From Halosimplex halophilum (GTDB lineage Archaea; Halobacteriota; Halobacteria; Halobacteriales; Haloarculaceae), in contig NZ_ML214298.1 in NCBI RefSeq assembly GCF_004698125.1, positions 744,001 through 808,000 on the forward strand: 64,000 nt of DNA, in the 5' to 3' direction. The first letter of the stretch is position 1. Every line of letters begins with the position of its first letter. Shown piece after piece: positions 24,468 to 42,957 of the stretch. The notes below the pieces were generated by a model. That model did not search any database and was not told the origin of the DNA. It worked only from the letters and a program-made list of their open reading frames with translations. Both the position numbers and the translations under genes were made by a program.

Positions 24468-25739
24468 CTACGGCTGGAAGCCCTGGCGTTCGATCTCGGC
24501 GGCGAGCGGGACGGGGAGGTACTCGTCCTCGCCGGGGGTGATCTGCGGGGTCAGCCAGCCGCCCTCGCAGTAGTGGTGGGGGTCGCGGTCGCAGGCGCCC
24601 GGCGCCTCGATGCGGCCGACGACGTTGTGGAGCAGTTCGTGGACGACGACGTGGCGCTGGGTCCGGTCGGCCGCGCCGGCGTCGACGAGCGCGAACTGGC
24701 CGCCGACCGAGCCGTAGCCGACCTCGTCGGAGACGAAGCGGGTCACGACGACGTGGTGGTAGACGCCGGCCCGCGGGCCGAGCCGGTCGCGGTAGAGATC
24801 GTTGCGGAGCGCGTCGAAGTTCCCGCCGGTGAAGACGGCGGTCTCGTTGACGTATCCGCCCCTGCGGACGTGGACGTCGATGCCCGACCCGTTGGCCCGA
24901 CGGACGGGCATCTCCGCGAACTCGGCCTCGACGCGGTCGTAGAAGGCGGCCGAGTCGGGCTCGACGCCGCGGGCGTAGTCGACCTGGACGTACAGGTCCA
25001 TCGCCAGCGGGTCGCTGCCGGGGAGCCGGGCGCCCGTCGGCGTCTCGCCGCGGACCTCCCACCCGTCGAGCAGTCTGTCGCCGTCGGTGTCGGGGTCGGT
25101 CGGGTCGGTGCCCACTTCGACCTCGCGCCAGTCGCTCAGCCCGTCGTCGTCGGTGTCCGGGTCGAAGGGATCGGTGCCGAGTTCGAGTTCGCGCTGGTCG
25201 GTGAGGCCGTCCGCGTCGGCGTCGACCGAGCGCGGGCTGGTCCCCCGCTCGACCTCCCGTCCGTCCGAGACGCCGTCGCCGTCCGTGTCGGGGTTCAGCG
25301 GGTCCGTGTTGAGTTCGATCTCCCGCCCGTCGGAGAGGCCGTCGCCGTCCGTGTCCGGGTCGAACACCTCGGTCCCGAGCTCCCGTTCGCGCGCGTCCGA
25401 GAGGCCGTCGCCGTCCGAATCCAGCGCGTTCCCGGTGTCGTTGCCCCTGGCGAACGGGGCGGTCGCGGGGTCGGTGTCGCCGCTGTCCGTCGACGACCCG
25501 TTCGCGGTCGCGGTTCCGTTCGCGGCGTCGGCGGCCGACCGGTGACCGGCCAGCAGCTGGTCGAGCTTTTCGAGAACCGCGTCGCTCGCGCCCCCGTTCC
25601 CCAGCGGGGGCGACTCGCTCGCCTCGCCTGTCGGCGTCGCCGCGGGCTCGTCGCGGGCGTCGGCCGTCTTCGCACCGAGCGCCCCGACGCCCGCGACGAG
25701 GACGATGCCCAGCAACGCCAGCGCCAGGACCCGTCGCAC
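24468..25739 (-). CDS. Secreted TSP3-repeat protein with HExxH metalloprotease-like domain
   Basis: A 423-residue exported protein. It has an N-terminal hydrophobic segment ([18 protein letters not shown], residues 5-22), a Ser/Thr/Asn-rich linker and then about six thrombospondin-type-3 Ca2+-binding repeats of the DxDxDG(L/V)SD type (residues 107-225). The C-terminal domain contains [11 protein letters not shown] (HExxH at 367-371), the classic zinc-protease motif, with cysteines and another His cluster (DPHHYC) after it. It is likely an extracellular calcium-stabilised metalloprotease. An AT-rich promoter (TAAAAATAG in coding sense reverse) lies right before the start. Confidence 0.8.
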
Positions 25740-28240: not shown

Positions 28241-28434
28241 GTCCGGGTCGTCGGCCCTCCCCCGGTTAGCTCCACCGGTCCCGGAAGCCGCGTGGGGAAC
28301 CCGCCGCCGGGCCGCCGACCGGCCGCTCGGGCGCCGGCAGCCCCGCGTCGTCTGGGACTCGTTCGCACTGATCGCATGTCACGTCAACACGTATCGGATA
28401 AACAATTATTAACGTCGGGGTCGAACGGAGAGAC

Positions 28435-28563
28435 ATGGCGACACGCCAGTCCACGTCGGACCCGACTCCGACATATCACACGTGCAGCTGTGGGAAACAG
28501 TTCGAGACCACAGAGGAACTGCTCGAGCACGCACGGGAGTCGCACGGGCTGAGCGTATTCTGA
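28435..28563 (+). CDS. 42-residue C2H2-type zinc-finger protein
   Basis: Very small protein starting MATRQSTSDPTPTYHTC and containing a compact zinc finger: C-S-C-G-K-Q-F, then ETTEELLEHARESH, giving Cys-x-Cys...His-x4-His. Such tiny zinc fingers are frequent in haloarchaea. A purine-rich GGAGAGAC stretch directly before the ATG is a plausible Shine-Dalgarno, and AATTATTAACG at about -25 is a good promoter. The tail LSVF is short. DNA, RNA or protein binding cannot be told apart. Confidence 0.75.
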   Translation: MATRQSTSDPTPTYHTCSCGKQFETTEELLEHARESHGLSVF

Positions 28564-28599
28564 CGAGCGCGCGCCGGTCTCGGGCTGGCCCGGCCTCGC

Positions 28600-28866
28600 T
28601 CAGTACACTCGCACCTGGAACCGCTCGTAGCCGCCGTGAGAGAGTTCCAGCGAACCGATCCACCAGTTCCACCGCTCGACCAGCGAGTGGTCCGCCGGCG
28701 CGTCGGCGAGTTCGTCCACCACCGCGTCGGCGGTGAGTTCGTACCCCAGGTCCTCGGCGACCCGCCCCGAGTCCGCCAGGTCCCGCGCCTGTCGGGCGAC
28801 CACCCGCCGCGCGTCCGCGTCGCCCTCGAACCGTTCGAGTTCCGACTCCAGTCGCTCCCGGTTCAC
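28600..28866 (-). CDS. Small acidic helical protein, function unknown
   Basis: An 88-residue protein started from GTG 28866 (V-N-R-E-R-L). It is helical at first (LESELERFEGDADARRVVAR, LADSGRVAEDLG), then VVDELADAPADHSLVERWNW, and ends in a beta strand (GGYERFQVRVY). The frame is open well upstream into the duplicated dph6 fragment, but that part has no coding character. No family recognised. It directly faces the zinc-finger gene convergently, and its leader overlaps the region just past the duplicated dph6 end. Confidence 0.65.
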   Translation of the reverse strand: MNRERLESELERFEGDADARRVVARQARDLADSGRVAEDLGYELTADAVVDELADAPADHSLVERWNWWIGSLELSHGGYERFQVRVY

Positions 28867-28936
28867 GACGCCACGGTTGTACCCCGACGCTCTTGAAGCA
28901 CCTCCATCGCGGAAGATCCTACCCCGCGCCAGCCAC

Positions 28937-28999
28937 TCACGCCAGCCAGGCGTCCGCGATCGTGAGCGTCCCGCGCGTCCCGTCCCACTCCGTCTCAGA
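28937..28999 (-). pseudogene. Second copy of the dph6 3' end (20 codons plus stop)
   Basis: This fragment matches 29145-29207, the last codons of dph6, with 7 differences over the 60 coding bases checked. Read in the dph6 frame it gives ETEWDGTRGTL, then TIADAWLA and a stop, against LRIEDAWLA in the real gene. Four of the six changed codons are synonymous and there is no frameshift, so it looks like an allele rather than random decay. Its left edge in gene orientation abuts the GGTGG end of the palindromic element. It has no start codon and should not make protein on its own. Confidence 0.85.
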
Positions 29000-29000
29000 A

Positions 29001-29072
29001 CCACCTTTTCCCACCCGGGTTTCCTCGCGCGCCGCCGGCGCGCTGCGGGGAACCCGGGCGGCAAAAACGTGG
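29001..29072 (-). mobile_element. 72-bp palindromic element body downstream of dph6
   Basis: An almost perfect 72-base palindrome. Outer ends are CCACCTTTTC (29001-29010) and AAAAACGTGG (29063-29072). Inside are CCCGGGTTTCC (29014-29024) against GGGAACCCGGG (29048-29058), and a core stem GCGCGCC / GGCGCGC (29027-29033 and 29037-29043). It would form a long hairpin or cruciform. It is flanked on one side by the terminator of dph6 and on the other, without a gap, by the duplicated dph6 end. No protein is encoded. Element type is my inference; see 40914-41042 for the counterpart. Confidence 0.6.
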
Positions 29073-29075
29073 GCG

Positions 29076-29140
29076 AAAAAGCCGGACGCCTCGCTCACTC
29101 CGTTCGCTCGCGTCCGGTGAATCGGCGCCTGTGGCGCCGA
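29076..29140 (-). terminator. Double-hairpin transcription terminator of dph6
   Basis: In the direction of dph6, the stop is followed after four bases by hairpin TCGGCGCC / GGCGCCGA (29122-29140, three-base loop). Then comes the TTCACCGG box and an eight-base stem CCGGACGC / GCGTCCGG (29110-29117 with 29082-29089) running into a five-T stretch (29076-29080). Hairpin plus T-run is a typical strong terminator. The same order appears after the thiolase gene at 40856-40910. Confidence 0.65.
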
Positions 29141-29144
29141 ACGG

Positions 29145-29876
29145 TCACGCCAGCCACGCGTCCTCGATCCGCAGCGTCCCGCGCGTCCCGTCCCACTCGG
29201 TTTCGGACTCCAGTTCGATCGCCCGCTCCATGTGCGGCCCGTCGGTGACTACTGTCTCGAACTCGCCGCCCTCGCCGAGGATGTGGACGCCGTAGCGCTC
29301 GTTGAGAGTTTCCAGTTCGTCGAGCGCGTCGGCGTCGAGCGTCCGGCCGAGCCAGGACTCGTCGAGGCCGCCGGCGGCGACGCGGATGATACGGATCTCG
29401 AAGCCGGCGTCGAGCATCGCGTCGGCGAGTTCCCGCGGGTCCCGCTGCCACAGCGGCGCGAACACCTCGGCGTCGAGGCGCTCGGCCATCGCCTCGATGC
29501 GGGAGGTCTGGTACTCGCTCTCGACCGCGCCGGCGGTGACGCCCGCGAGGCCGCCGGGGAGGTCCGGATCGAGCTCCCGCAGGGCCGCCTCCAGCGGTTC
29601 GAGTTCGGCGTCGCCCTGCGCGCCGGAGTCGGTCGTCTCCCCGGCCCCGAAGTCGTCGGGTTCGACCTCGACCAGCGGGATCCCGACGCTCTCGGCGGCC
29701 AGGCCGGCCAGTCGCGTCGCCGGGACGTGGTACATGTAGGAGTCGCCCTCCGGGTGGACGGTCACCAGTCGCTCGACGGGCAGGCCGCGTTCGAGCGCCC
29801 GGTACAGCGCCCACGAGGAGTCCTTCCCGCCGGAGAACAGCGAGACCCAGCTCCCCCCGTCCGCGTCGTCTGTCAT
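29145..29876 (-). CDS. dph6: Diphthine--ammonia ligase (Dph6-type ATP pyrophosphatase)
   Basis: Final step of diphthamide synthesis on elongation factor 2: ATP-dependent amidation of diphthine. The 243 residues have the PP-loop SGGKDS at 15-20, EPDDFGAG and GGLAGVTAGAVESEYQTSR, then LGEGGEFETVVTDGPHM, all typical of the MJ0570/Dph6 group. ATG 29876 is preferred over 29909 because the PP-loop follows directly. The last 20 codons exist a second time downstream (28937-28999), beyond a palindromic element; the real gene is intact. An AT-rich ATATAAACC promoter precedes it. Confidence 0.9.
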   Translation of the reverse strand: MTDDADGGSWVSLFSGGKDSSWALYRALERGLPVERLVTVHPEGDSYMYHVPATRLAGLAAESVGIPLVEVEPDDFGAGETTDSGAQGDAELEPLEAALRELDPDLPGGLAGVTAGAVESEYQTSRIEAMAERLDAEVFAPLWQRDPRELADAMLDAGFEIRIIRVAAGGLDESWLGRTLDADALDELETLNERYGVHILGEGGEFETVVTDGPHMERAIELESETEWDGTRGTLRIEDAWLA

Positions 29877-30074
29877 ACCGATCGGTACGCCGTGGCGCAT
29901 ATAAACCATCTTTTTCGACGGTGGACCGCGCTGAACCGTCGGCGGCTGCTCGGTCCAGGACGTAGACGTACCGCCTCGTGTCGGGCTGTACTCCTCGCAG
30001 TCCCCCGCTCGACCGGTTTGACGGATCCGCCGGTCCCCGGACGGCAGGACGGTCGCTGCAGGGGCATCGCTGCG

Positions 30075-30410
30075 TCAGTTCAGCCGCTCGACCCGGATGC
30101 CTCCACAGGATCGACAGGTGTCAATGTCGCTGTCGGGGGCGTAATACTTCTCGCCGCACGACTGGCACCGGTGGCTGATTTTCCCCGTACCTCGGTCGGG
30201 AACGGACCGTGTTCGATCCTCCCCGGTTCCGCCGTCCCGTCCGAGAAGCACGTAGAGGAGAATCCCGAGAAAGCCACCGAAGAAAGCGACGAGACCCCAG
30301 AGAACCGCGCTTTGCGAGCTGTTCTCGGCCGCGTCGACGAAGACCCAGACGGTTCCGACGAGTCCGACGACGAGCGTCAGGAACGCTAGAAAAACGAGCC
30401 CGTTAGCCAT
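30075..30410 (-). CDS. Two-helix membrane protein with C-terminal zinc ribbon
   Basis: A 111-residue protein: two transmembrane helices (LVFLAFLTLVVGLVGTVWVFV and LWGLVAFFGGFLGILLYVLL) joined by DAAENSSQSAV, resembling the PLD-nuclease N-terminal two-helix domain. A basic linker leads to a zinc ribbon (C-Q-S-C-G...C-R-S-C-G). ATG 30410 is chosen because upstream extension enters the promoter of mutB. The zinc ribbon faces the cytoplasm if the usual topology holds. Its codon use is a little less GC-extreme than its neighbours. Function unknown. Confidence 0.75.
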   Translation of the reverse strand: MANGLVFLAFLTLVVGLVGTVWVFVDAAENSSQSAVLWGLVAFFGGFLGILLYVLLGRDGGTGEDRTRSVPDRGTGKISHRCQSCGEKYYAPDSDIDTCRSCGGIRVERLN

Positions 30411-30538
30411 GGTGCGAGATGTGTACGCGAATGTAAATGTCTTCTCGTAAGCTAGCAGGTCCGATCGGGGCCACACGAACTGGACACGAAACCCGGTTCC
30501 AGCCAACGGCTAAGGGGCCGCCGTGCGAACACGGGGGT

Positions 30539-32224
30539 ATGTTCGACTCCGACGACCTCGCGGCCATCCGCGAGGGCAAGGAGGAGTGGGAGGCCGAGAC
30601 CCGGGGGCCGACCGTCGACCGCTTCGGCGAGCGCAAGGACACCTTCGAGACCGACACCGGCGGCCAGGAGGTCGACCCCCTCTACACCCCCGCGGACGTG
30701 GCCGACCTGGACTACGGGGAAGACCTGGGCTTCCCCGGCGAGGAGCCGTACACTCGCGGGGTCTACTCGACGATGTACCGCGGCCGGCTGTGGACGATGC
30801 GCCAGTACGCCGGCATGGGCACCGCCAGCGAGACCAACGAGCGCTTTCAGTATCTCATGGACGAGGGCCAGACCGGCCTCTCGATGGCGTTCGACCTGCC
30901 CACCCAGATGGGCTACGACTCCGACGCCGGCATGGCCGCCGGCGAAGTCGGCAAGGCGGGCGTCGCCATCGACTCGCTGCGGGACATGGAGACGGTCTTC
31001 GACGGCATCCCCCTGGACGAGGTGTCCACCTCGATGACGATCAACGCCCCCGCGAGCGTCCTGCTGGCCATGTACATCGCCATCGGCGACCAGCAGGGCG
31101 TCGACCGGGAGGAACTGCGCGGGACCATCCAGAACGACGTGCTCAAGGAGTACATCGCCCGCAACACCTACATCTTCCCGCCCGAGCCGTCGATGCGTAT
31201 CATCACGGACATCTTCGAGTACTGCGCCGAGGAGGTCCCCAACTTCAACACCATCTCCATCTCGGGGTATCACATCCGCGAGGCCGGCTCGACCGCCGCC
31301 CAGGAGATCGCCTTCACCCTCGCCGACGGCATCGAGTACGTCGAGGCCGCCCAGGACGCCGGCCTGGCGGTCGACGAGTTCGCCCCTCAGCTGTCCTTCT
31401 TCTTCGCCTCCTACAACAACATCCTCGAGGAGGTCGCGAAGTTCCGGGCGGCCCGGCGGATGTGGAAGCGGATTATGGAGGAGCGGTTCGACGCGGAGAA
31501 CCCCGAGTCCAAGCAGCTGAAGTTCCACACCCAGACCGCGGGGTCGACGCTGACCGCCCAGCAGATCGAGAACAACGTCGTCCGGGTGGCCTACCAGGCG
31601 CTGGCGGCGGTGCTGGGCGGGACCCAGAGCCTCCACACCAACGGCAAGGACGAGGCGCTGTCGCTCCCGACGGAACAGTCCGTCCGGACCGCGCTGCGGA
31701 CCCAGCAGATCCTCGCCCACGAGTCCGGCGTCGCCGACACCATCGACCCGCTGGGCGGCAGTTACTACGTCGAGTCGCTGACCGACGAGGTCGAGGCCGA
31801 GGCCCGGGCGATCATCGAGGAGGTCGACTCGCGCGGCGGGATGCGCAAGTCAATCGAGGACGGCTGGGTCCAGCGCCAGATCCAGGACGTGGCCTACGAG
31901 CGCCAGGAGGAGATCGAGAACGGGGAGCGGGTCATCGTCGGCGTCAACGAGTACACCGTCGAGGAGGACGCCCAGGACCCCGACATCGAGGAGGTCTCCG
32001 AACAGCAGGAACGGGCCCAGATCGAGCGGCTCGAATCGGTGCGCGAGGAGCGCGACGACGAGGCCGTCGACGCGGCGCTGGCGGCGCTCGCCGACGCCGC
32101 CGCGGGGGAGGAGAACCTCATGCCGTACATCGTCGACGCCGTGAAGGCCTACGCGACGACCGGCGAGATCTGCGACACGCTGCGCGACGAGTTCGGCGAG
32201 TACCAGCCCGGCGCCGCGATGTAG
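30539..32224 (+). CDS. mcmA: Methylmalonyl-CoA mutase large (catalytic) subunit
   Basis: Interconverts (R)-methylmalonyl-CoA and succinyl-CoA in propionate and fatty-acid use and in haloarchaeal carbon metabolism. The 561 residues cover only the substrate-binding TIM barrel: [62 protein letters not shown] and [14 protein letters not shown]. There is no B12-binding domain, so a separate small subunit must exist elsewhere, as is usual in archaea. The ATG at 30539 is followed at once by a family-typical acidic helix. Well expressed codon pattern. Confidence 0.95.
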
Positions 32225-32372
32225 CCGGGCGGGACCGGCTTTCGTCCCGGGACTGGCTCCCGCCGCTGGTTCTCGGGTCGCTCGATACGGGGACGCGTCG
32301 CTGTGGTGCGGTCGGCGCGCGCTGGAGCCCGCCGGAACGCTCAAAGCCCGTCGACGCCAAGACGCTCCCGGT

Positions 32373-32603
32373 ATGGACCCGGCAGTTCGTTTCTGGCTGT
32401 TGATCCTCGCGCTGGCGGGGACGGTCTCGGCGACGGTCCTGCTGGTCGTCTCGGCGTTCCTGCCGGGGGCGGTCCTCGGGACCGCCGACTCGGTCGGCTA
32501 CGTCGTCTCCGTGCTCGTCGCGCTGGTCTCGCTGGGGCTGCTCGTCTGGTCGCTGACGGCCGCCAGCGGGAGTCAGGGCGGCGGGTCGCCGGGGGCGCGG
32601 TGA
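32373..32603 (+). CDS. Two-helix small membrane protein
   Basis: A 76-residue protein with two transmembrane helices (FWLLILALAGTVSATVLLVV and VVSVLVALVSLGLLVWSL) and a Gly/Ser-rich tail. Size and layout suggest a small haloarchaeal membrane protein. The next gene starts three bases after its stop, so they are probably co-transcribed and may form a complex. Function unknown. Confidence 0.7.
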   Translation: MDPAVRFWLLILALAGTVSATVLLVVSAFLPGAVLGTADSVGYVVSVLVALVSLGLLVWSLTAASGSQGGGSPGAR

Positions 32604-32605
32604 GG

Positions 32606-33064
32606 ATGGCCGACGGGTCGTCGCTCCGGTGGACGGCGCTCGCCGGCCTGTCGTTCGGCGCCGTCGGCGCCGGGCTGGTGGCGGCGTTCTCGGTCGCACC
32701 CTGGAGCGGTGCGGCCTGGGAGAGCCGCGCGCTCGCGCTCGTCGCGCTCGGCGTCGGGGCGGTCGGCGCGTGCTGCTGGCTCGCGGTGGTCGAACGGGTG
32801 GGGCGCTGGCGACTTCGACGCCGCGGCGCGCTCGCCGGCGCGCTCGCCGGCGTCTTCGGTCCCGCGGGGTTCGTTCTCGCGGCGAGCCTGTTCGGCGAGG
32901 CGCTCGGCGGGACCGCCGGTCCGGTCGAGCGCGTCGGCGCCGCGCTGTTCGTCGGGCTCGTCAACCTCCTCTACGTCGGCTGGCTCGCCCTCCCGCTGGG
33001 GACCGCGACCGGGTACCTGCTCGGCCGGCGGCGCGAGACCGCCCCGGAGCGGCGCCCGCTCTAG
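32606..33064 (+). CDS. Four-helix membrane protein, function unknown
   Basis: A 152-residue protein with four helices: ALAGLSFGAVGAGLVAAF, ALALVALGVGAVGACCWLAV, ALAGVFGPAGFVLAASLF and ALFVGLVNLLYVGWLALPLG. Arg-rich loops (RVGRWRLRRRG and LLGRRRETAPERRP) indicate cytoplasmic sides. It starts three bases after the preceding small membrane gene. Its TAG stop and the stop of the opposite-strand SDR gene share the palindrome CTAG at 33061-33064, so the two reading frames overlap tail to tail by four bases. Confidence 0.7.
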   Translation: MADGSSLRWTALAGLSFGAVGAGLVAAFSVAPWSGAAWESRALALVALGVGAVGACCWLAVVERVGRWRLRRRGALAGALAGVFGPAGFVLAASLFGEALGGTAGPVERVGAALFVGLVNLLYVGWLALPLGTATGYLLGRRRETAPERRPL

Positions 33065-33846
33065 CTCCGCATCGCGCCGCCGTCGATGGGCAGCGCCGTC
33101 CCGGTGACGAAACTCGCCCGCGGGCTGGCGAGGAACGCCACCACGTCGCCGAGCTCCTGGGGGTCGCCGATCCGCCCGAGGGGGACCGACGAGCCCTTGT
33201 CTTCCAGCCCCTCCTCGTAGCTGTCGTACTCGCCGCGCTCGACGCCGTCCTCGATGAGCTCCTCGATACGGGCGGTCTCGTGGGCACCGGGCAGGACGGC
33301 GTTCACGCGAACGTCGGGCGCGAACTCCCGCGCCTGGGTCTTGACCATGCCGATGACCGCCCGGCGGACCGCGTTCGACAGGACCAGGTCGTCGATGACC
33401 TCACGGACCGACCGCGAGGTGATCGCCGTGATCGACCCCTGGTCGGACTCGGCGAGGTGGGGGTGGGCGAAGCGGGTCGTCCAGACCGCCGACATGACGA
33501 GCGTGTCGTAGGCGCCGTACCAGTCCTCGTCGTCCATCTCCAGGAACGCGCCGCTGGGCGGCCCGCCCGCGCTCATGACGACCTGGTCGATCCCGCCGAA
33601 CTCCTCGGCCACCTGATCGACGTAGGCCTCGACCTCCGCCCGGTCCGTCAGGTCGACTTCCACGGCGAGCACGTCGCCGTCGCCCAGCGATTCGAGGTCC
33701 GCTTCGGCCGATTCGAGGTGCGATTCGGTGCGGCCGCAGACCGCCACGTCCGCGCCCTCGCGGGCGAGCGCCTTCGCGCTCGCGAGGCCGAGACCGCTGG
33801 AGCTGGCCGTCGTCAGTGCCGCGCTGCCGTCGAGTTGCAAATCCAT
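33061..33846 (-). CDS. SDR-family oxidoreductase with altered catalytic motif
   Basis: Rossmann-fold short-chain dehydrogenase of 261 residues. The cofactor loop reads TTASSSGLGLASAKALAREG and the N-N-A-G position is VVMSAGG. The catalytic Ser lies in ITSRSVREV. The usual Y-x3-K is replaced by S-N-A-V-R within LSNAVRRAVIGMVKT, so Tyr becomes Ser and Lys becomes Arg. NAVLPGAHETARIEELI and the C-terminal FVTGTALPIDGGAMRS are normal. A known SDR subgroup has this change; activity and substrate are uncertain. Confidence 0.85.
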   Translation of the reverse strand: MDLQLDGSAALTTASSSGLGLASAKALAREGADVAVCGRTESHLESAEADLESLGDGDVLAVEVDLTDRAEVEAYVDQVAEEFGGIDQVVMSAGGPPSGAFLEMDDEDWYGAYDTLVMSAVWTTRFAHPHLAESDQGSITAITSRSVREVIDDLVLSNAVRRAVIGMVKTQAREFAPDVRVNAVLPGAHETARIEELIEDGVERGEYDSYEEGLEDKGSSVPLGRIGDPQELGDVVAFLASPRASFVTGTALPIDGGAMRS

Positions 33847-33931
33847 ACGCGTGTGGTCGGGCCGGCGCCTCAAAGAACCGGGAGATTCCGGATCGCTCTC
33901 TCCGTCGCCGACGCGCTCCTCGCGGTCCTGC

Positions 33932-35602
33932 TCACTCCCGCGCTCGCGCGGCGCGGTACCGGTCGCGGAGGGTGCCGGCCAGCCGCCGTTCCGTCGGCGT
34001 GAACCCGAGGAACCGGAGCGTCGCCGCGTACGCCGCGAGCCCCCCGAGGACGCCGACGACCGGTGCCGCCGGGCCGGCGACGGCGGCCTTGGCGCTCCAG
34101 GCGACGACCCCAAGCGGGACCGCGGCGACCAGCGGCTTCCCGTGCAGCGGCGTGAACGGCTGGAGCCGCTCGAAGTGGTAGAGGACGGCGACCTCCAGCC
34201 CGTTGTTCAGCGTCAGCATGAGCACGTAGCTCGCCACGAGGCCGGCGAGGCCGTACCGGACCGTCAGCGGGACGGCGACGGCGGCCAGCAGGAGGGTGAT
34301 ACAGACGTTGACCGCGAGGTAGGGCCGCTGGTTGTCGGTCATCATCAGGAGGATGCCGACGCTGCCGGCGGCGCAGGCGCCGAACTGCGCGAGGACGAAC
34401 CCGACCAGAAGCGGCGCGTAGGGGACGAACGCCGGTCCGAACAGCGCCATCACGGTCTCGCGGTAGACGACCACGGGGACCGAGAGGCCGACCACGCCGA
34501 CGAGGACGAGCCGGCTGGTGACGTGGTAGAACCGGGAGAGTGCCGCACGGTGGTCGTCCTCGTGGAGCGCGGCGGCGACCGGCGGGACGAACTGGTTGAG
34601 CCCGATCAGCGGCAGCCTGACGAGCGACCCGACGACCATCCCGACCGCGAAGACGCCGCCCGCCACGTCCGTCAGGTAGACGGCGATCAGCGGGTAGAAC
34701 CCGAGTCGCTGGATCGTCGTCGCCACCCCGCCGACGAACAGCGGAGCCGTGTAGCGGACGTAGCGGCGCCCCACCGAGCGGAGGTCGGGAGCGCTCGCGC
34801 CCTCCTCTCGTTCGGTGTCGTCGCTCCTCTCGGCTCGCCGGAACCGGAGCCCGATCCCGCGCTCGCGGACGAGCCACGCGGTCGCGGCGAGGCCGGTCAA
34901 CCCCGAGACGGCGACGACGCCGACTGCGACGGCGACCAGATCCCCGAAGACGACCGCGCCGACGACGCCGACGAGCAGCTGGGCCGCCGGGAAGCCGACC
35001 CGCAGCGCGAGGTTCAGCGCCGCGACCTCCTCCAGCCCGCGGAGCACCTCCGTCGCGGTGAACAGCCACACCGTCGCCGGCAGGCCGACGGCGAACACGC
35101 GGAGCGTCGTCTCGAACAGCGGCCGCTGGTCGGTGAGCGAGGTCACCAGCGGCGCGGCCAGGTACAGCCCGGCGCCGAAGGCGGTCGCGACGGCCCCCAG
35201 CAGCAGCCCGGCGACCGTCACCAGGGCGTCGCGTTCGGCCGGCGAGTCGGCGTTCGGCAGAAAGCGGCTCAGCCCGCTCCGGAAACCCAGCGCGACGTGC
35301 AACAGGAACTGCTGGAGGCGCCGCGCGACGGCGAAGACGCCGTAGGAGCTCGCCGCGAACCCGTTGGTCAGGACCGCGGTAAAGGCGACGGTCAGCCCGC
35401 GCTGGACGAGGATGCTCGGCACCGAGACGGTCGCGCCGTGGGCGACCCGCTCCAGGGCGTCGTCCAGGCGCGCCTCGACCGGGTCGGCGGCGTCCGGATC
35501 GTCGGACCGTTCGTCGGCCGCCGTCGCCGCGCCGGCGCCGTCGCTGGTCGCCGTCGTGTCGCCGTCGTCGGACGCGTCGGGGACCGCCGGGTCGGGGACC
35601 AC
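33932..35602 (-). CDS. Polysaccharide/lipid-linked oligosaccharide flippase (Wzx/PST type)
   Basis: A 556-residue MOP-superfamily flippase with 12 to 14 helices. It starts from GTG 35602 with an acidic 55-residue N-terminus, then VPSILVQRGLTVAFTAVLT, ARRLQQFLLHVALGFRSGLS and repeated helix pairs; Pro- and Gly-rich kinks and the LIGLNQFVPPVAAALH region are typical of PST proteins. In haloarchaea such proteins flip dolichol-linked glycans used for S-layer or archaellin glycosylation. No glycosyltransferases lie nearby, so its cargo is open. The cytoplasmic C-terminus is Arg-rich. Confidence 0.85.
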   Translation of the reverse strand: MVPDPAVPDASDDGDTTATSDGAGAATAADERSDDPDAADPVEARLDDALERVAHGATVSVPSILVQRGLTVAFTAVLTNGFAASSYGVFAVARRLQQFLLHVALGFRSGLSRFLPNADSPAERDALVTVAGLLLGAVATAFGAGLYLAAPLVTSLTDQRPLFETTLRVFAVGLPATVWLFTATEVLRGLEEVAALNLALRVGFPAAQLLVGVVGAVVFGDLVAVAVGVVAVSGLTGLAATAWLVRERGIGLRFRRAERSDDTEREEGASAPDLRSVGRRYVRYTAPLFVGGVATTIQRLGFYPLIAVYLTDVAGGVFAVGMVVGSLVRLPLIGLNQFVPPVAAALHEDDHRAALSRFYHVTSRLVLVGVVGLSVPVVVYRETVMALFGPAFVPYAPLLVGFVLAQFGACAAGSVGILLMMTDNQRPYLAVNVCITLLLAAVAVPLTVRYGLAGLVASYVLMLTLNNGLEVAVLYHFERLQPFTPLHGKPLVAAVPLGVVAWSAKAAVAGPAAPVVGVLGGLAAYAATLRFLGFTPTERRLAGTLRDRYRAARARE

Positions 35603-35739
35603 GGCGCTACGTTGGCGGATCGGGCGACAAAAAACCGCTGGAACGGCCGGGCACAGCTGTCAGAACAGGGGGAATACGAGCGCGCGGTGAAGCGGCGGTG
35701 TCACGACTGTCCAGTCGGGAGCGCCGGCCGCGAGGGCCG

Positions 35740-36195
35740 TTACGAGCCCCAGAAGTTGTCGCGGCTGCCGAGGCGCTCGCGGTCGTCCTCCTCCTCGTCG
35801 GCCTCGTCGTCCGCCTCGTCGGCGTCCGATTCGGCGTCAGTTTCGTCCGCGTCGTCGGGCTCGTCGGGGAGGCGTTCGAGCTCCTCGGCGCGGGCGTGGT
35901 TCGAGCGGACCTTGGTGATCTTCACCTTCGCGCGGGCCGGCGGCAGGACGCCGTCGACCATGATGATGAAGCCGTCCTCGGTGCGGCCGACGCCGGCGCC
36001 GCTCTCGTGGATGTCCTCCACGGTCACCTCGACCTCCTGGCCGGGCTGGACGGGTTGACTCTTCAGGTCCTCGATCGGCTGGTTGTAGTGATTGCACCAC
36101 TCGGCGCCCCCGCGGTCGCCGTAGTGCGTACAGCCCATCCCCTCGATGCGCTCCTGAAAACTGGGGCACTCGTCCGCGAGTGGACAGTCGGGCAT
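35740..36195 (-). CDS. TRAM-domain protein with N-terminal cysteine cluster
   Basis: A 151-residue protein in three parts. The N-terminus holds a zinc or iron-sulfur-like cluster (MPDCPLADECPSFQERI, GMGCTHYGD, EWCNHY). A TRAM RNA-binding beta-barrel follows (VQPGQEVEVTVEDIHESGAG, IIMVDGVLPPARAKVKITKV). The C-terminus is an Asp/Glu-rich run of about 45 residues ending RDNFWGS. TRAM proteins bind structured RNA and are often cold-shock or tRNA-linked. The cysteine cluster plus acid tail layout is usual in haloarchaea. Divergence from a neighbour is not seen. Confidence 0.85.
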   Translation of the reverse strand: MPDCPLADECPSFQERIEGMGCTHYGDRGGAEWCNHYNQPIEDLKSQPVQPGQEVEVTVEDIHESGAGVGRTEDGFIIMVDGVLPPARAKVKITKVRSNHARAEELERLPDEPDDADETDAESDADEADDEADEEEDDRERLGSRDNFWGS

Positions 36196-36316
36196 GACGG
36201 CGAGTAGCGCTGGGGCGAAGTAAACGCTTGCGCTCTCGCCGTCAGCGGCCGCGTTCGGCGTTTCGACCCGCCGAGCGCTCGCTCGCGGCCCCTCCCGCCG
36301 GTCCGCGGGCCGGCCC

Positions 36317-36673
36317 TCACCGCTCGGGCGGCACGTCCGCGTCCGGGTCGTTCGGAGGTCCGTCCCCGCTCGCGCCGTCGGGCCGCACGTCCTCGCCCGC
36401 GCCCTCTGCCCCGTCGGGGTCGATCCCCAGCGTGTTCCCCGTCTCGACGTGGTCGATCCCGTCGACCTCGCAGACCGCGCCGACCCGCTCGTGTGCGACG
36501 GACGCCTTCAGCGTCCGGAACTCCAGCCGTTCCTCGACCGTCGCGCCGGCGTCCTCGACGGCCGCCGCCACGCCGTCGAGGGTCGCCCCGTCGGCGACTT
36601 CCAGCAGGAGCTCGACCGACTCCCCCTCGACGGGGTCGTCGCGGATGGTGCGGACCGCTGGCGAGACGTACAT
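36317..36673 (-). CDS. Propeptide-inhibitor-like (I9-type) small protein, tentative
   Basis: A 118-residue cytoplasmic protein. Residues 18-80 have a beta-alpha-beta pattern (VELLLEVADGATLDGVAAAV, AGATVEERLEFRTLKASV, VGAVCEVDGIDHVE) like the small domain of subtilisin propeptides and related inhibitors. The rest is an Asp/Pro/Gly-rich tail (GASGDGPPNDPDADVPPER). No protease gene is adjacent. The fold guess rests only on pattern and length. Confidence 0.55.
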   Translation of the reverse strand: MYVSPAVRTIRDDPVEGESVELLLEVADGATLDGVAAAVEDAGATVEERLEFRTLKASVAHERVGAVCEVDGIDHVETGNTLGIDPDGAEGAGEDVRPDGASGDGPPNDPDADVPPER

Positions 36674-36804
36674 GCTCGCCCGTTGGCCCGTCGCCCCCGA
36701 AACGCTGGCGGTCGACCGCCTGGCGCGGGCCGGCCCGTCCCCGCCGCCCGCGACGGATCGCCGGTGTCCCCGGACTCTTCGGGGTGGCGTCCCTACCGTC
36801 GGCC

Positions 36805-37824
36805 ATGCGAGCGAGCAACCGGCAGTTCCGACTGGCCGAGCGCCCCGAGGGGCGGCCCGACCGCGACACCTTCGAACTGGTCGAGACCGACGTACCGGAC
36901 CCCGGTCCGGGCGAGGCGCTCGTCCGCACGCGCTACCTCTCGGTCGACCCGTACATGCGCGGCCGGATGAGCGCCGGCGAGTCCTACGCCGAGCCCTGGG
37001 ACGTGGGCGAGCCGCTCCAGGCGGGCGTCGTGGGCGAGGTCGTCGAGTCTGCGGGCGCCGAGTTCGAACCGGGCGACGTGGTCGTCGGCAACCTCGAGTG
37101 GGCCGACTACGCGACCGCGCCGGGGACCGCCCTCACCGCGGTCGACCCCGACCTGGCGCCCGTCTCGACGGCGCTGGGCGTTCTCGGGATGCCCGGTCGG
37201 ACCGCCTACTTCGGGACCACGGAGGTCGCGGACCCCGAGCCCGGCGACACGTTCGTCGTCACGGGCGCGGCCGGCGCCGTCGGCTCCGTGGCCGGCCAGA
37301 TCGCCGGGCTCGCCGGCGCCCGCGTCGTCGGCTTCGCCGGGTCCGACGAGAAGGTCGCGTTCGTCGAGGACGAACTCGGGTTCGACGCCTGCATCAACTA
37401 CGAGACAACCGACGACTACCGCGCGGCGCTGGACGAGGCGGCGCCCGACGGCGTCGACTGCTACTTCGACAACGTCGGCGGGCCGATCACCGACGCCGTG
37501 TTCGACCGGCTGAACGTCGACGCCCGCGTCGCCGTCTGCGGCCAGATCGCCCACTACAACGCCACCGAGCGGCCGACCGGGCCGCGAAAGCTCGGGACCC
37601 TCGTCGAGACCCGCGCCCGCGTCGAGGGCTTTCTCGTCGGCGACTTCGAACCGCGCTACGAGCAGGCCACCGAACGGCTGGCCCGCTGGGTCCGGAACGG
37701 CGACATCGAGTACCGCGAGACCGTGACCGAGGGGCTGGAGAACGCTCCCGAGGCCTTCCTCGGGCTGTTCGAGGGCGAGAACATCGGGAAACAGCTAGTG
37801 CGGGTGAGCGAGCCCGACGAGTAG
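36805..37824 (+). CDS. Zinc-independent MDR-family NADP-dependent oxidoreductase
   Basis: A 339-residue medium-chain reductase of the prostaglandin/leukotriene reductase branch. It has the N-terminal substrate domain (YLSVDPYMRGRMS, PLQAGVVGEVVESAGAEFEPGDVV) and a Rossmann domain with VTGAAGAVGSVAGQIAGLAG and VVGFAGSDEKVAFV. No zinc-binding cysteines. VDCYFDNVGG and VAVCGQIAHYN are typical. Such enzymes reduce the double bond of enones or 15-oxo lipids with NADPH. ATG 36805 is the natural start (MRASNRQFRLAER). It runs convergently against the AAA ATPase. Confidence 0.9.
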   Translation: MRASNRQFRLAERPEGRPDRDTFELVETDVPDPGPGEALVRTRYLSVDPYMRGRMSAGESYAEPWDVGEPLQAGVVGEVVESAGAEFEPGDVVVGNLEWADYATAPGTALTAVDPDLAPVSTALGVLGMPGRTAYFGTTEVADPEPGDTFVVTGAAGAVGSVAGQIAGLAGARVVGFAGSDEKVAFVEDELGFDACINYETTDDYRAALDEAAPDGVDCYFDNVGGPITDAVFDRLNVDARVAVCGQIAHYNATERPTGPRKLGTLVETRARVEGFLVGDFEPRYEQATERLARWVRNGDIEYRETVTEGLENAPEAFLGLFEGENIGKQLVRVSEPDE

Positions 37825-37845
37825 GACGGGTCGGCGAGTCCGGCG

Positions 37846-39219
37846 TCAGTGGTCGTGGCCGTGGTCGTGCGAGTGGCCGCCGTCCGACGCCGCCTCCGAG
37901 CCGTCGCTCGTCCCGGAGATGTCGCCGCCGGCGACCAGGGCGTCGTGGTCGCCCTCGATCATGTCCATGTTCTTGAGGTTGTCCCGCTCCTCGAAGTCCT
38001 CGACGGCGTCCAGCAGGTCCTGCTGGGTGAGCGTGGTGCGCTCCTCGGTCAGCGCGTCGAGCACCGCCTCCCGGAGGACGAGCCGGAGGTCGCTGCCGGT
38101 CAGCCCCTCGGTCTCGCGGGCGATCGCCAGCGGGTCGAAGTCGTCGATCTCCATGTCGCGGGTCACGACTTCGAGGATGTCCGCCCGCATCTGGTCGTCG
38201 GGCTTGGGGAAGTTGACGATCTCGTCGAAGCGCCGCCAGGCCGCGGCGTCGAGCTGGTCGGGGTGGTTGGTCGCGCCGATGAGCAGCACCTCGTGTTCGA
38301 TGAGGCTCACCTCGTCGATGCTCTTGAGGAGGGTGTTGACCGCCCGCTTGATGGCGGCGTGCTCGTCGCTGGCGCGGGTCTTGGCGACGAAGTCGAACTC
38401 GTCCATGAAGAGGATACACGGCGAGAGGCGGGTGGCGACCTCGAACACCTTCTCGACGTTCTTGGCCGTCTCGCCGAGGTACTGGGAGGTGATCATCGAG
38501 AGTTTCACCTCGACGAACGGCAGGTCGAGTTCGCTGGCCAGCGCCCGGGCGACGGAGGTCTTCCCGGTGCCCGGCGGGCCGACGAAGAGGAGCTTGCCGA
38601 TCTCCCGGAGGCCGATCTGGGCGAGGTAGTCGCGGTGTTCGATGGCCTTGACGATCTTGTGGATCTCGCCCTCCTGGTCGGGGGTCAGGACGAGGTCGTC
38701 CATGGTCATCTCGACCTCCTCGGGGGCGCGGATGTCGACGAGGTCGAGCATCTCCTGTTCGTCCTCGTCGTCCTCGTCGAAGTACTCCTCGAGCAGCTGG
38801 TCGATCCAGACGCGGTCGGCTCGAACGGGACGGTTCTCCTCCCGGGCGTGCTCGTAGTCGGCGCCGTCGACCCGGTCCTCGTAGACGGCGGCGAGCGTGG
38901 GGTTGTCGTTGATGCGGTCGGCGTCCGCTCTATCGAGGTACCACTCCTCGGCCATGTCCTCGTCGGTGAAGGTGAGGGTCCCCGAGAAGTCGTCGCGGTC
39001 GGTGAACATCAGCCCCGAGATCGCCTCCCAGGGCCGGTCCACGTCGGTCGCTTCCCGGGCCGTGGTCGTGGTGGCCGAGAGCGGGCGCTCGATCTCCCCG
39101 TCGCTCCAGAAGACCGCCCGGTAGGCGGGCGGCAGGTCGTCGGCGTCTAGGTCGCGGTTGTCGCTGTAGGCCTGCGCCGTCAGCACGAACTCCACGACCG
39201 CAAGCTCCGGATCGCTCAT
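37846..39219 (-). CDS. AAA-type ATPase with histidine-rich C-terminus
   Basis: A 457-residue ATPase. The N-terminal 180 residues are a private domain (EFVLTAQAYSDNRDLDADDL and a very acidic helix EEYFDEDDEDEQE). The AAA module has Walker A GPPGTGKT (214-221), Walker B CILFMDEFDF, sensor ATNHPDQ and Arg-finger WRRFDE. The C-terminal lid is EGLTGSDLRLVLREAVL. The last residues are GGHSHDHGHDH, a metal-binding-like tail. ATG 39219 is favoured; the open frame upstream to 39303 lies in leader DNA. It looks like a CDC48/proteasome-type AAA relative with a haloarchaea-specific N-domain; substrate unknown. Confidence 0.85.
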   Translation of the reverse strand: MSDPELAVVEFVLTAQAYSDNRDLDADDLPPAYRAVFWSDGEIERPLSATTTTAREATDVDRPWEAISGLMFTDRDDFSGTLTFTDEDMAEEWYLDRADADRINDNPTLAAVYEDRVDGADYEHAREENRPVRADRVWIDQLLEEYFDEDDEDEQEMLDLVDIRAPEEVEMTMDDLVLTPDQEGEIHKIVKAIEHRDYLAQIGLREIGKLLFVGPPGTGKTSVARALASELDLPFVEVKLSMITSQYLGETAKNVEKVFEVATRLSPCILFMDEFDFVAKTRASDEHAAIKRAVNTLLKSIDEVSLIEHEVLLIGATNHPDQLDAAAWRRFDEIVNFPKPDDQMRADILEVVTRDMEIDDFDPLAIARETEGLTGSDLRLVLREAVLDALTEERTTLTQQDLLDAVEDFEERDNLKNMDMIEGDHDALVAGGDISGTSDGSEAASDGGHSHDHGHDH

Positions 39220-39357
39220 TCCCACCGAGATTCGTCCCCCGACCGGATAAGTCTCGCGAAGCGTCCGCGCCGCCCGAATATTGCCGGCGATCAGATACCT
39301 CATGTGACACGTCTCGACACGTTTATGTCGCCGGCGAAACGACAGCCCGGACGAACC

Positions 39358-39582
39358 ATGGACGAAGTCCTCGAAGTCGCGGAAGTCGCGGCCGATTTCG
39401 GACTAGAGGGCGTGTTCCGACTGATACTGGGACTCGTCGGGTTCCTGCTACTGGTGGGCGGCCTGGGGCTGTGGCTGCTCACCGACATGGGGCTGCTCGT
39501 GCTCCCGGCGGTCCTGATGGTCGTCGGCGTCCTGCTGATGGTCGCCCCGGTCGTCCTGTTTGTCATCGGGGACCTGCTGTAG
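39358..39582 (+). CDS. Small membrane protein, two helices
   Basis: A 74-residue protein from ATG 39358: an acidic amphipathic start (MDEVLEVAEVAADFGLEG), then two hydrophobic helices (LILGLVGFLLLVGGLGLWLL and LLVLPAVLMVVGVLLMVAPV). The frame is open to 39304, but the later ATG fits small-protein style. It is divergent from the AAA ATPase with about 140 bases between and lies before the thiolase. Function unknown. Confidence 0.65.
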   Translation: MDEVLEVAEVAADFGLEGVFRLILGLVGFLLLVGGLGLWLLTDMGLLVLPAVLMVVGVLLMVAPVVLFVIGDLL

Positions 39583-39711
39583 GCGTCGGCGCCCGAACCG
39601 CCGCCGCGGCTCGGCGCCCGGGCCGCAGCGACGACCCGGCGTCCGAGAAACTCCGCGCGACGCGTCCGTCGTTTGTGAGGACTTAACACGTCGCGGCCCC
39701 TCCACGGATCC

Positions 39712-40851
39712 ATGAGCGACGCGACACCGGTCATCGTGCAGGCCCGGCGGACGCCCCAGGGCAAGGAGGACGGCGCCTTCGCGGACGTGCGAAGCGAGGA
39801 CCTGTCGGTTCCGCTGGTGAACGAGATGCTCGCCGACACGGGGCTGGCCGGCGAGCAGGTCGACGACCTGCTGTGGGGCTGCGCCCAGCAGCGCGACGAG
39901 CAGGGCAACAACATGGCCCGCGTGGTCGCCCTCCTCTCGGACCTGGGCGAGGCGGTGCCCGCGGCGACCATCAACCGCTGGTGTGCCTCCTCGGCGGAGG
40001 CGATCATGCGCGGCGCCGACGCCATCGCCGCCGGGCAGCGCGACTGCGTCATCGCCGGCGGCGTCGAGTCGATGAGCCGCGTCGAGCTCGGCCAGAACAC
40101 CCACAACGTCCACCCGCGGCTCGCCGAGCTGTACAACATCGGCGAGCTCCAGATGGGGATGACCGCCGAGAAGGTCGCCGAGGAGTACGGCGTGAGCCGC
40201 GAGGAACAGGACGAGTACGCGCTCCGCAGCCACCGGCGGGCGGCCGATGCCACCGACTCCGGCCGGTTCGACGACGAGATCGTCCCCGTCGAGACCGAGG
40301 AGGGGACGGTCGACGAAGACGAGGGTATCCGCCGGGACACCTCTCTGGAGAAGCTGGCCGGCCTGCCGACCGTCTTCAAGAGCGAGGGGACGGTCACGCC
40401 GGGCAACGCCTCCCAGATATCCGACGGCGCCGCGGGGACGATGGTCACCTCCCGCGCGTTCGCCGACGACCACGGGCTGGACGTGCTCGCGGAAGTGGGC
40501 GACCACATGGTCGCCGGCGTCGACCCGACGATCATGGGCGTCGGCCCGGTCCCGGCAGTCCGCAAGCTCTGCGAGCGCACCGGCCGGGACACCGGCGACT
40601 ACGACCTCGTCGAGCTCAACGAGGCGTTCGCCAGCCAGGCGCTGTACTGCCAGCGCGAGCTCGGCTTCGACGACGAGCTCTACAACGTCAACGGCGGCGC
40701 CATCGCCATCGGACACCCGCTGGGGGCCTCCGGCGCGCGCCTGCCCGTCACGCTGATCCACGAGATGAACCGCCGCGACGCGGACCTGGGGCTGGCGACG
40801 GAGTGCGTCGGCTTCGGCCAGGGCGCGGCGATCGAGTTCTCGCTGCCGTAA
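39712..40851 (+). CDS. Thiolase-family acetyl-CoA acyltransferase
   Basis: A 379-residue thiolase for acyl-CoA breakdown or acetoacetyl-CoA formation. The nucleophile Cys is in [13 protein letters not shown], the His region is [14 protein letters not shown], and a second Cys lies in [10 protein letters not shown] near the end. N-terminal [17 protein letters not shown] is typical. Its final 11 codons and stop occur again at 41047-41081 downstream of a palindromic element. Gene itself is complete. It may serve fatty-acid oxidation or PHA precursor supply, alongside the window's hydratase and mutase genes. Confidence 0.9.
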
Positions 40852-40855
40852 CCGT

Positions 40856-40910
40856 CCGCGCGCCCTCGGCGCGCGGTTCACCGGGCCGAGCGTCGCGAGG
40901 CTCGCTTTTT
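40856..40910 (+). terminator. Double-hairpin terminator downstream of thiolase
   Basis: After the stop comes a GC stem CCGCGCG / CGCGCGG (40856-40862 with 40870-40876), then TTCACCGG (40877-40884), a second stem CGAGC / GCTCG (40887-40891 and 40900-40904) and a CTTTTT run (40905-40910). It matches the order after dph6 at 29076-29140. A terminator role is expected from hairpin plus T-run. Confidence 0.6.
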
Positions 40911-40913
40911 GCC

Positions 40914-41042
40914 CCATCTTTTTCGAGGAGTGGTATCCGCAGCGAGCGGGGCGAGGCCGACCGGAGGGAGGCCTCGATGCGGACGGGGAGCGTCGCGACC
41001 CGTGAGCGCAGCGAGTGAGGACACCCGACGAGAAAAAGGTGG
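40914..41042 (+). mobile_element. 129-bp element body downstream of thiolase with inverted ends
   Basis: The ends are CCATCTTTTTC (40914-40924) and GAAAAAGGTGG (41032-41042), reverse complements at 10 of 11 positions. Nested stems lie inside, for example TCCGCA with TGCGGA and CGAGGCC with GGCCTCG. There is no coding capacity. On the left it adjoins the thiolase terminator, on the right the duplicated thiolase end follows within four bases. It parallels the dph6 element (29001-29072) in order and in its GGTGG-type junction, although the central sequence is different and longer. The element nature is inferred. Confidence 0.6.
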
Positions 41043-41046
41043 TCGC

Positions 41047-41081
41047 GCCAGGGCGCGGCGATCGAGTTCTCGCTGCCGTAG
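41047..41081 (+). pseudogene. Second copy of the thiolase 3' end
   Basis: Identical to 40817-40850 over 34 bases and continuing to a stop in the same frame (TAG instead of TAA), so it spells [10 protein letters not shown] and stop. A following GC hairpin (GCGTCGG with CCGACGC, about 41080-41110) and GCGCGGTTC imitate the region after the real gene, but have diverged. There is no start codon or upstream domain. The copy lies immediately past the GAAAAAGGTGG end of the element, as at dph6. Confidence 0.85.
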
Positions 41082-41293
41082 GCGTCGGTCGCGCTCTGTG
41101 GCGCGCCGACGCGCGGTTCTCCCACCTGCAGTTACCCGGCCGTCGCCCCCGGTCCGCCGGGACCGCGTTTCTCGACCTGCCCGGACCGCGTCTCCGTGGA
41201 CGGGCCGTCGCTCGACCCGGGCAGGAACGGGCGTACGGCGGACGGAAACGAGCGTGTGGCCGACGGGAACGGTCGTAATTCAGTTTCGAAAAA

Positions 41294-41301
41294 ATATTTA
41301 T
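41294..41301 (+). promoter_or_regulatory. TATA box of the histidine kinase gene
   Basis: TATTTATA in an AT-rich island (GAAAAAATATTTATACTG), centred about 28 bases before the chosen GTG at 41326. In archaea transcription starts about 25 bases after the TATA box, so the transcript would begin at or within a few bases of the GTG, that is, leaderless. Confidence 0.6.
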
Positions 41302-41325
41302 ACTGTCAGTGTGGGAGGTGCTGGT

Positions 41326-42957
41326 GTGCTTTCGGCGCCGCTGGTGGGTGGGCCGATACTGGGCGCCGTGGCCGCCGCGTTCGGGTGGTACGCGTGGCGG
41401 CTGCGGGGGGCGCGCGACCGGCCGGGGGGGACCGGGCTGGTGGCGATAGCGGCGTTGCTGGCGGTCGTGACGCTGGCCGAGGCGCTGGTCGTCGGGCTGG
41501 GGCTGCCCGCGGCGGCGCTCGCCCCGTTGACGCAGATCGTCGTCTTCGGCGGAGCGGTCTGCTGGGCGAAGTTCGTCATCGCGTACACCGGCCGGGACCC
41601 GGGCGGGCCGGGCGTGCTGGCGCTGGTCGTGTTGCTCCCGGCGCTCGGGATCGTCAGCGCGCTGTTGCGGTTCACGCCCCTCCTCCCGATGACCGAGCCG
41701 GTGAGTTCGGCCGGGCCGGTGAACGTCCTCGCCAGCAGCGTCGCCAGCGCGGCGTCGTGGGGGATCCTGATCGGGCTCTCCCTGCTTCTGATCTGGGACG
41801 CGACGCGGTACGCGTCGTTCGAGCGCCCGCGCGGCGTCGCGCTCTCGCTCGTCGGCTTCGCGCTCGCGGGGATGCCGCTGGTCACCTCGGCGCTGGAACT
41901 GGCGGACACCATCACCATCGGGACGGGTGCGGTCGTCGCCCAGGCGGGCGTCCTCGCGGCGCTGACCGTCGGTATCGCCGTCGGCCGCCCCTACCGCTCG
42001 CTGCCGATCGCGGAGGCGATCGGCCGCGACGCGGTCGTCTCGAACCTCAACGACGCCGTCGTGGTGGTCGACGGCGACGCCCGGATCGTCGACATGAACG
42101 AGGCCGCCGAGGCGCTGTTCGACCGGTCGCTCGACGCGGTCGTCCGCGAGCCGCTGTCGGCGCTGGTCGACGCGGACCTGCTGGGGCCGGACGGTCTGCC
42201 CGGCGAGTCGACGGTCCAGATCGGGGACGCGGTCGGCAAGCGCTACTTCGACGTGTCGGTGTCGCGGGTGCGCGGCGACGGCGCCGTCGAGGCGGGGTAC
42301 GCGGTGGCGCTGCGCGACGTGACCGACGAGCGGATCCGCGGCCAGCGCCTGGAGGTGCTCGGGCGGGTGCTCCGGCACAACGTCCGCAACGACATGACGG
42401 CGGTGTACGCGATGGCCGACGCGGTCGCGGAGAACGGCGACGAGGCGGTCGCCGAGCGGCTCCGCGAGACGGCCGACTCGCTGGTCGACGTGAGCGAGCG
42501 GGCCCGGGCCGTCGAGGAGAGCATGTGCCTCGACCCGGCGACCGACGAGACGGCGGACGTGGGCGCGCTCGCGACGGAGGTGGCGGCCGTCCTCCGGGAG
42601 CAGGGCCACGACGTGTCGGTGCGGACCGACGACGACGCCGAGGTCCGCCGGTCGCCGAAGCTGGTCGCGTCGGTCTGCGAACACCTGCTGTCGTACGCGG
42701 CCGGCAACGCGTCGGGGCCGGTGGCGGTGACCGTCGACGACCGCGGGAGCCACGTCGACGTGACCGCCGAGAGCGACGGGCGACTGCTCGACGAGCAGGA
42801 CGCGGCGGCGGTCACGAACGGCAGCGAGACCCAGCTGGAACACGCCGAGGACCTGGACATCTGGGCGGTCTCGTGGGGCGCCGAGCGGCTCGGCGGCGAG
42901 TTGCTCCCCGACTGCGAACGCGGCCGCAGCGTCGGCGTCCGGATCCCGGTGGAGTGA
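41326..42957 (+). CDS. Membrane-bound PAS histidine kinase
   Basis: A 543-residue sensor kinase. It has seven or so transmembrane helices in the first 220 residues (LVGGPILGAVAAAFGWYAW, LVAIAALLAVVTLAEALVVG, IVVFGGAVCWAKFVIAYT and others), then a PAS domain (SNLNDAVVVVDGDARIVDMN). The phosphoacceptor box is RVLRHNVRNDMTAVYAM. The ATPase domain is weak: CEHLLSYAAGNA replaces the usual N-box and no clear D-x-G-x-G is seen. GTG 41326 is chosen because the TATA box places the transcript start there. No response regulator is adjacent. Confidence 0.8.
   Translation: MLSAPLVGGPILGAVAAAFGWYAWRLRGARDRPGGTGLVAIAALLAVVTLAEALVVGLGLPAAALAPLTQIVVFGGAVCWAKFVIAYTGRDPGGPGVLALVVLLPALGIVSALLRFTPLLPMTEPVSSAGPVNVLASSVASAASWGILIGLSLLLIWDATRYASFERPRGVALSLVGFALAGMPLVTSALELADTITIGTGAVVAQAGVLAALTVGIAVGRPYRSLPIAEAIGRDAVVSNLNDAVVVVDGDARIVDMNEAAEALFDRSLDAVVREPLSALVDADLLGPDGLPGESTVQIGDAVGKRYFDVSVSRVRGDGAVEAGYAVALRDVTDERIRGQRLEVLGRVLRHNVRNDMTAVYAMADAVAENGDEAVAERLRETADSLVDVSERARAVEESMCLDPATDETADVGALATEVAAVLREQGHDVSVRTDDDAEVRRSPKLVASVCEHLLSYAAGNASGPVAVTVDDRGSHVDVTAESDGRLLDEQDAAAVTNGSETQLEHAEDLDIWAVSWGAERLGGELLPDCERGRSVGVRIPVE

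Follow-up and report, generated by a model that had tools for sequence, protein, structure and literature searches.

A second, non-coding end of dph6 behind a terminator-like hairpin in Halosimplex halophilum, one case of a widespread haloarchaeal pattern

Within a 64-kb stretch of the Halosimplex halophilum genome (hereafter the window; genome G000, 4.47 Mb), the 3′ end of the dph6 gene is found twice, the second time downstream of a hairpin element that resembles a transcription terminator. The locus thus raises the question of whether the second gene end is a coding sequence acquired from another lineage, as a preliminary description of this DNA had proposed, or a relic that has no coding role, and of how a gene end could have come to lie behind such an element. 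Here, the functional gene end is termed A and the second gene end, downstream of the element, is termed B. Comparisons included the nearly complete genome of H. aquaticum (G005) and two sister Halosimplex species (G003 and G006). Elements were located by sequence pattern in sampled stretches of the genomes and degenerate copies were missed, so the counts given are lower bounds; gene names at further loci were taken from sequence motifs.

Architecture of the dph6 and thiolase loci

The dph6 gene is an ORF for a diphthine-ammonia ligase-like protein (positions 29145–29909, minus strand) with homologues in 40 of 40 genomes searched; it probably encodes Dph6, a name that fits its SGGKDS motif. Reading along the minus strand, the last 63 nucleotides of the gene (A, 29145–29207) are followed by a first hairpin (TCGGCGCC...GGCGCCGA, 29122–29140), which is joined through the link TTCACCGG (29114–29121), a sequence found again in other copies of the element, to a second hairpin (29082–29117), both hairpins being assigned by folding. 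Beyond these lies a T5C tract (29075–29080) that, by analogy with the T5C terminators of Haloferax (PMC7237163), is the probable stop for dph6 transcription. A 72-nt hairpin body comes next (29001–29072), with a CCAC/GGTGG foot, inner T5 and A4 tracts and the terminal sequences CCACGTTTTT and AAAAGGTGG. This body folds far better than shuffled sequences (z = −4.6) and was identified by BLAST and folding as a member of a repeat family. The junction TTCT (28997–29000) connects it to B (28937–28996), which comparison of the sequences and a codon-position test, described below, characterize as a non-coding relic.

The recurrence of the gene end at 28937–28999, on which the preliminary description was built, is borne out by alignment: A and B are identical at 55 of 63 positions, and the Smith-Waterman score of 86 lies far above the best scores obtained with shuffled sequences (22–29). 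Two details required correction. Differences between the copies had been counted as six codons, four of them synonymous; the copies do differ, but at seven codons, five synonymous and two not (R to T and E to A), and the first of these (TCC/TCT) is partly junction sequence. In addition, B had been said to start directly at GGTGG. True homology begins at GAGAC (28996), and the junction that precedes it, reading GGTGG-TTCT-GAGAC, consists of three nucleotides of the gene (TTC) and one extra (T). An identical junction is present in H. aquaticum and G006, where B is longer, and the copy in the window would correspond to that longer version after loss of ∼50 bp between two GAGAC repeats. The carriers of this junction (G000, G005 and G006) are not mutual closest relatives in the tree; given that such species have the junction in common, the dph6 duplication is old, and its loss has occurred on more than one occasion. 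In G003, the sister of G006, dph6 is followed by the element but not by copy B.

An equivalent arrangement is present on the plus strand behind the thiolase gene, where A (40817–40851) is followed by hairpins, a T5 tract and a hairpin body (40852–41042), the junction TCGC (41043–41046) and B (41047–41081). The TCGC junction is the same in three other Halosimplex species, and the order of parts across 40817–41081 is identical to that at dph6, in agreement with the layout originally reported for the two loci. That this layout exceeds chance was also upheld: AAAAGGTGG occurs twice in the window against an expectation of 0.03 per 64 kb, at least 10 H. halophilum genes have the layout and ∼25 junctions were collected. 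Separately, a minus strand ORF elsewhere in the window (24987–25426) contains five 66-nt tandem units encoding DxDGDG-type, calcium-binding-like repeats.

A family of terminator-like elements

The dph6 duplicate is one case of a widespread pattern. A direct-repeat test of 40 loci in the H. halophilum genome revealed the order A, stop codon, one or more hairpins, T5 tract, CCAC/GGTGG-footed body, ∼4 nt and B at at least 10 of them. The dph6 element (29001–29144) belongs to a Haloarculaceae repeat family that has ∼40 members in the same genome. In each, a T5 tract separates the small hairpin, or pair of small hairpins, from a large one that bears T tracts on both strands; the whole dph6 element gave 48 BLAST matches, some of which are reverse matches of the same palindrome. 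Halosimplex genomes contain 23–45 occurrences each of the exact core CTTTTTNNCCCANSTTTTT. Certain other Haloarculaceae have a handful, and the sampled genomes of other families have none; the reversed control pattern gave 0 hits. A known RNA family was also considered for the element, and none matched in Rfam at E ≤ 1 across window positions 28401–41400.

Among 111 elements surveyed in four genomes, B is present at 28, and all 28 sit behind a forward gene; many of the elements that lack B are only 0–3 nt away from a convergent gene's stop codon. The duplicates are concentrated in the subfamily that ends in GGTGG (21/28 with B versus 14/83 without, p = 4e-8). Nearly all of the ∼25 independent A/B junctions come from Halosimplex. 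The dph6 layout also occurs in four other genera, namely in Haloarcula pellucida (as a tandem array), Haloarcula rara, Halorientalis salina, Haloarchaeobius and Halorussus aquaticus, and the start of B is nearly constant in most of these cases (∼118–129 nt before the stop codon), which may reflect either a hot spot or old inheritance. In a further genus of Haloarculaceae (locus L106, genome G013), the same layout stands behind another gene. Tandem A-element-B-element-B arrays exist. The region ∼250–480 nt past dph6 in Haloarcula pellucida (L113) comprises at least three tandem copies of gene end and hairpin, with an N in the assembled sequence.

Other features of the family were observed in passing. 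The elements at four H. halophilum loci (L032, L037, L038 and L039) differ very little from one another, and each has CCTGTACTGAGC, or a slightly different version of it, behind it; the same sequence stands before the first hairpin in other copies, which suggests larger composite units. At L020, L030, L183, L202 and L214, the right end of the element adjoins putative 3′ ends of convergent tRNA genes.

The T tracts on both strands, together with the position between convergent genes, make two-way termination likely, and the element is most likely a two-way transcription terminator. In a Haloferax reporter, a T5C sequence terminated 95% of transcripts (PMC7237163). Like those haloarchaeal terminators, the present elements have T5C right behind a hairpin, no more than ∼70 nt from the stop codon; they differ in that the whole composite recurs as a repeat, has T tracts on either strand and is followed by a second copy of the gene end.

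Coding status of the second gene end

To assign changes to one copy or the other, A/B differences for 34 B copies were polarized against other Halosimplex species. Changes private to B were distributed over the three codon positions as 8/8/12, and those private to A as 0/1/14. A further 28 differences, of which 23 are at third positions, could not be assigned because both bases are seen in other species. The even spread in B implies that this copy is free of coding constraint, and it is mainly changes in the functional copy that give the A/B differences their apparent codon bias. Thus, the proposal that the copy in the window was selected as coding sequence in another background is not supported.

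The preliminary description had suggested that B might cluster with a different clade from the functional gene. Among 32 comparisons, B was closest to the A of its own genome in 24, with three ties and five nearest to others. The window copy follows this tendency, although by a single base over 60 nt: it matches the local dph6 at 53/60 positions and those of two other Halosimplex species at 52/60. Given that junctions are common to several species while B is nearest to local A, A and B appear to exchange sequence within lineages, that is, to undergo concerted evolution. For example, no difference separates the final ∼90 nt of the two dph6 ends of G006, although its A is 13–18% different from the A of other species. 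Gene conversion, which is documented between chromosome copies of haloarchaea (PMC8223754) and is efficient in polyploid haloarchaea, may be the cause of this similarity by analogy: in both settings homologous stretches would be homogenized within the cell, but the documented conversion acts between chromosome copies, whereas here the partners would be the end of a gene and the duplicate downstream of it.

A foreign origin was rejected as the default for the window copy in view of its shared junction and of the codon-position test. In Halorussus aquaticus, the idea is partly supported, and there the upstream A would be the import.

Junctions and the origin of the second gene end

The junctions themselves have a constant form. 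In 17 of 25 independent junctions, the three nucleotides past GGTGG are the gene's own; one or two additional nucleotides, in most cases C, come next, before the gene sequence resumes; when partners were permuted, the mean was 1.9 and the maximum 8. Some junctions are shared: a methyltransferase-like gene has ATGCA in G000, G002, G004 and G006, again species that are not mutual closest relatives, and three species have CTGCC at their ornithine carbamoyltransferase gene. By contrast, the thiolase, SufS-like and glyoxalase-like genes have two different junctions each, and independent events therefore seem to have struck the same gene. At pta, H. halophilum has both an element and a 93-bp duplicate, and four relatives have neither. 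In H. aquaticum, the foot at a radical-SAM gene (L182 / L241) is joined via TCGC into the interior of the downstream gene, the start of which has been removed. Two peculiarities of the ornithine carbamoyltransferase locus are recorded here. In G006 (L262), the hairpin interior is inverted between the T and A tracts when compared with other copies, as expected of a cruciform flip, and in G004 (L261), the hairpin region ∼150–260 nt past the gene contains long runs of G and of C that look like an assembly artefact.

On balance, B is best explained as an old, non-coding copy beside a terminator-like hairpin, and we judge it somewhat probable that it was formed by joining at the hairpin foot and later maintained or erased by conversion and deletion. 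In this scheme, the downstream foot of the hairpin (GTGG) would be a recurrent point of joining to nearby sequence. Joining of the foot to the end of the preceding gene, in another chromosome copy or in DNA of another strain, would generate the order A, stop codon, element, B, probably by way of a 3-nt match and the addition of one or two nucleotides. A would remain the functional end and B would be without coding role, so that B could decay, be shortened (as in the window) or lost, or be rewritten through gene conversion with A. Four observations sit less comfortably with this explanation. Extra nucleotides placed exactly 3 nt past the foot are unlike simple microhomology joining; the bias of duplicates towards the GGTGG subfamily hints at specific machinery rather than a passive effect of the hairpin; the co-occurrence of element and duplicate at pta fits an insertion with a long target duplication equally well; and the A/B differences in H. 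aquaticum, Halorientalis and Halorussus look allelic.

The last of these observations bears on import by recombination, a reading that we regard as possible but unlikely. Here, DNA of a related lineage that ends at the foot would recombine within the gene while its other end is joined to the recipient, so that A and the element would be imported and B would be native, which is the original proposal with A and B exchanged. One such case is Halorussus aquaticus, in which A and B are identical for 41 nt and differ at about one-quarter of the remaining sites with both frames intact. In this species, B is nearer to the relative H. ruber (0.83) than is A (0.73), and H. ruber is also the best match for the body of the gene (0.90), so that an imported end would be the functional upstream A. 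The pattern in Halorientalis salina is similar, and the A/B differences in H. aquaticum are nearly all synonymous. A comparison of G003 with G006 points in the same direction: synonymous identity in the last 40 codons minus that in the gene body averaged −0.083 for six B-bearing genes and +0.014 for 52 element-less genes (p = 0.025). The largest departure, −0.293, was that of dph6. However, just six B-bearing genes entered this comparison, and the same result could arise if a decaying B had converted A. Moreover, most B copies are closest to local A. A general breakpoint pattern, with the 5′ part identical and the 3′ part different, was sought and rejected, since it is seen at three loci only and is absent overall among 101 A/B mismatches (KS p = 0.68).

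In a further reading, the foot would serve as the active end of a recombination system so far unrecognised, which would swap or duplicate gene 3′ ends together with the terminator. We consider this reading rather unlikely.

Another reading, improbable in our view, has the hairpin element transposing into the terminator and creating a target-site duplication so long (∼35–225 nt) that it takes in the gene end. It would account for the joint presence of element and 93-bp duplication at pta in H. halophilum and their joint absence from relatives, and for the likeness of element copies in unrelated genes. Against it, the length of the duplication is highly variable and its downstream edge shifts, lying at the stop codon, past the first hairpin or at the T tract, and neither a transposase nor a larger element with such ends was found, the tnpB genes of H. 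halophilum being without them. A remnant of a TnpB/IS605 transposon was likewise set aside, since the sequence around the four tnpB genes of H. halophilum shows no similarity to the element. The inverted ends of a MITE derived from a DNA transposon are present, but the duplicates are long and variable rather than a short target duplication of fixed length. PATEs and the IS605-type elements of Haloquadratum (PMC3119063) are also haloarchaeal repeats that contain palindromes and no transposase; PATEs have near-terminal palindromes around a core and no target duplication, whereas the present elements have a single central hairpin, T tracts and, in 28 of the 111 surveyed, a gene-end duplicate, which need not be a target duplication.

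Least probable is single-strand transfer at the foot by an HUH enzyme of Y1 type, as in REP and IS200/IS605 systems, with a cut ∼4 nt past the foot, the cut end then being joined to a site of similar sequence within the gene: the foot-to-joint distance is fixed at ∼4 nt with a 3-nt target match, TnpA-REP cleaves near a hairpin foot and joins strands (PMC8266576), and Y1 transposase genes are present in six of eight Halosimplex genomes, but the nearly complete H. aquaticum genome has at least five B loci and no Y1 transposase match, only one of nine Y1 loci (3-kb pieces) has an element of the family, and the added nucleotide is missing from the target. For the same two reasons, the absence of a Y1 match in H. 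aquaticum and the single nearby element among nine Y1 loci, the link to REP and RAYT was judged weak. Bacterial REP and REPIN sequences with TnpA-REP (RAYT) do resemble the present family: both consist of extragenic hairpins in many copies, which often lie behind genes or where two convergent genes meet, with suspected roles in termination and a possible joining activity near the foot. They differ in that the hairpin here is much longer, has no GTAG at the 5′ foot and has no linked transposase that could be found; the REP tag of GTAG/CGTC type on a short hairpin is absent, the foot here being CCAC/GTGG. As far as the literature searched shows, duplication of gene ends has not been described as a feature of REP sequences.

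In the open-access literature searched, nothing relevant was found on haloarchaeal hairpin repeats with gene-end duplication, and the arrangement is undescribed in those papers. A gene-end duplicate behind a terminator-like hairpin is a recurrent arrangement in at least five named genera. In practical terms, annotation may take the surplus gene ends for frameshifts or fragments of genes, and assembly may be misled, as the N in the Haloarcula pellucida array illustrates. Because one copy of each A/B pair is constrained and the other is not, the pairs offer a naturally occurring test of gene conversion, and the junctions, with their constant signature, record how DNA has been joined in nature at a single fixed point. 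Were the foot indeed the active end of a recombination system, gene ends would be exchanged as cassettes and would evolve faster than the bodies of the genes to which they belong.
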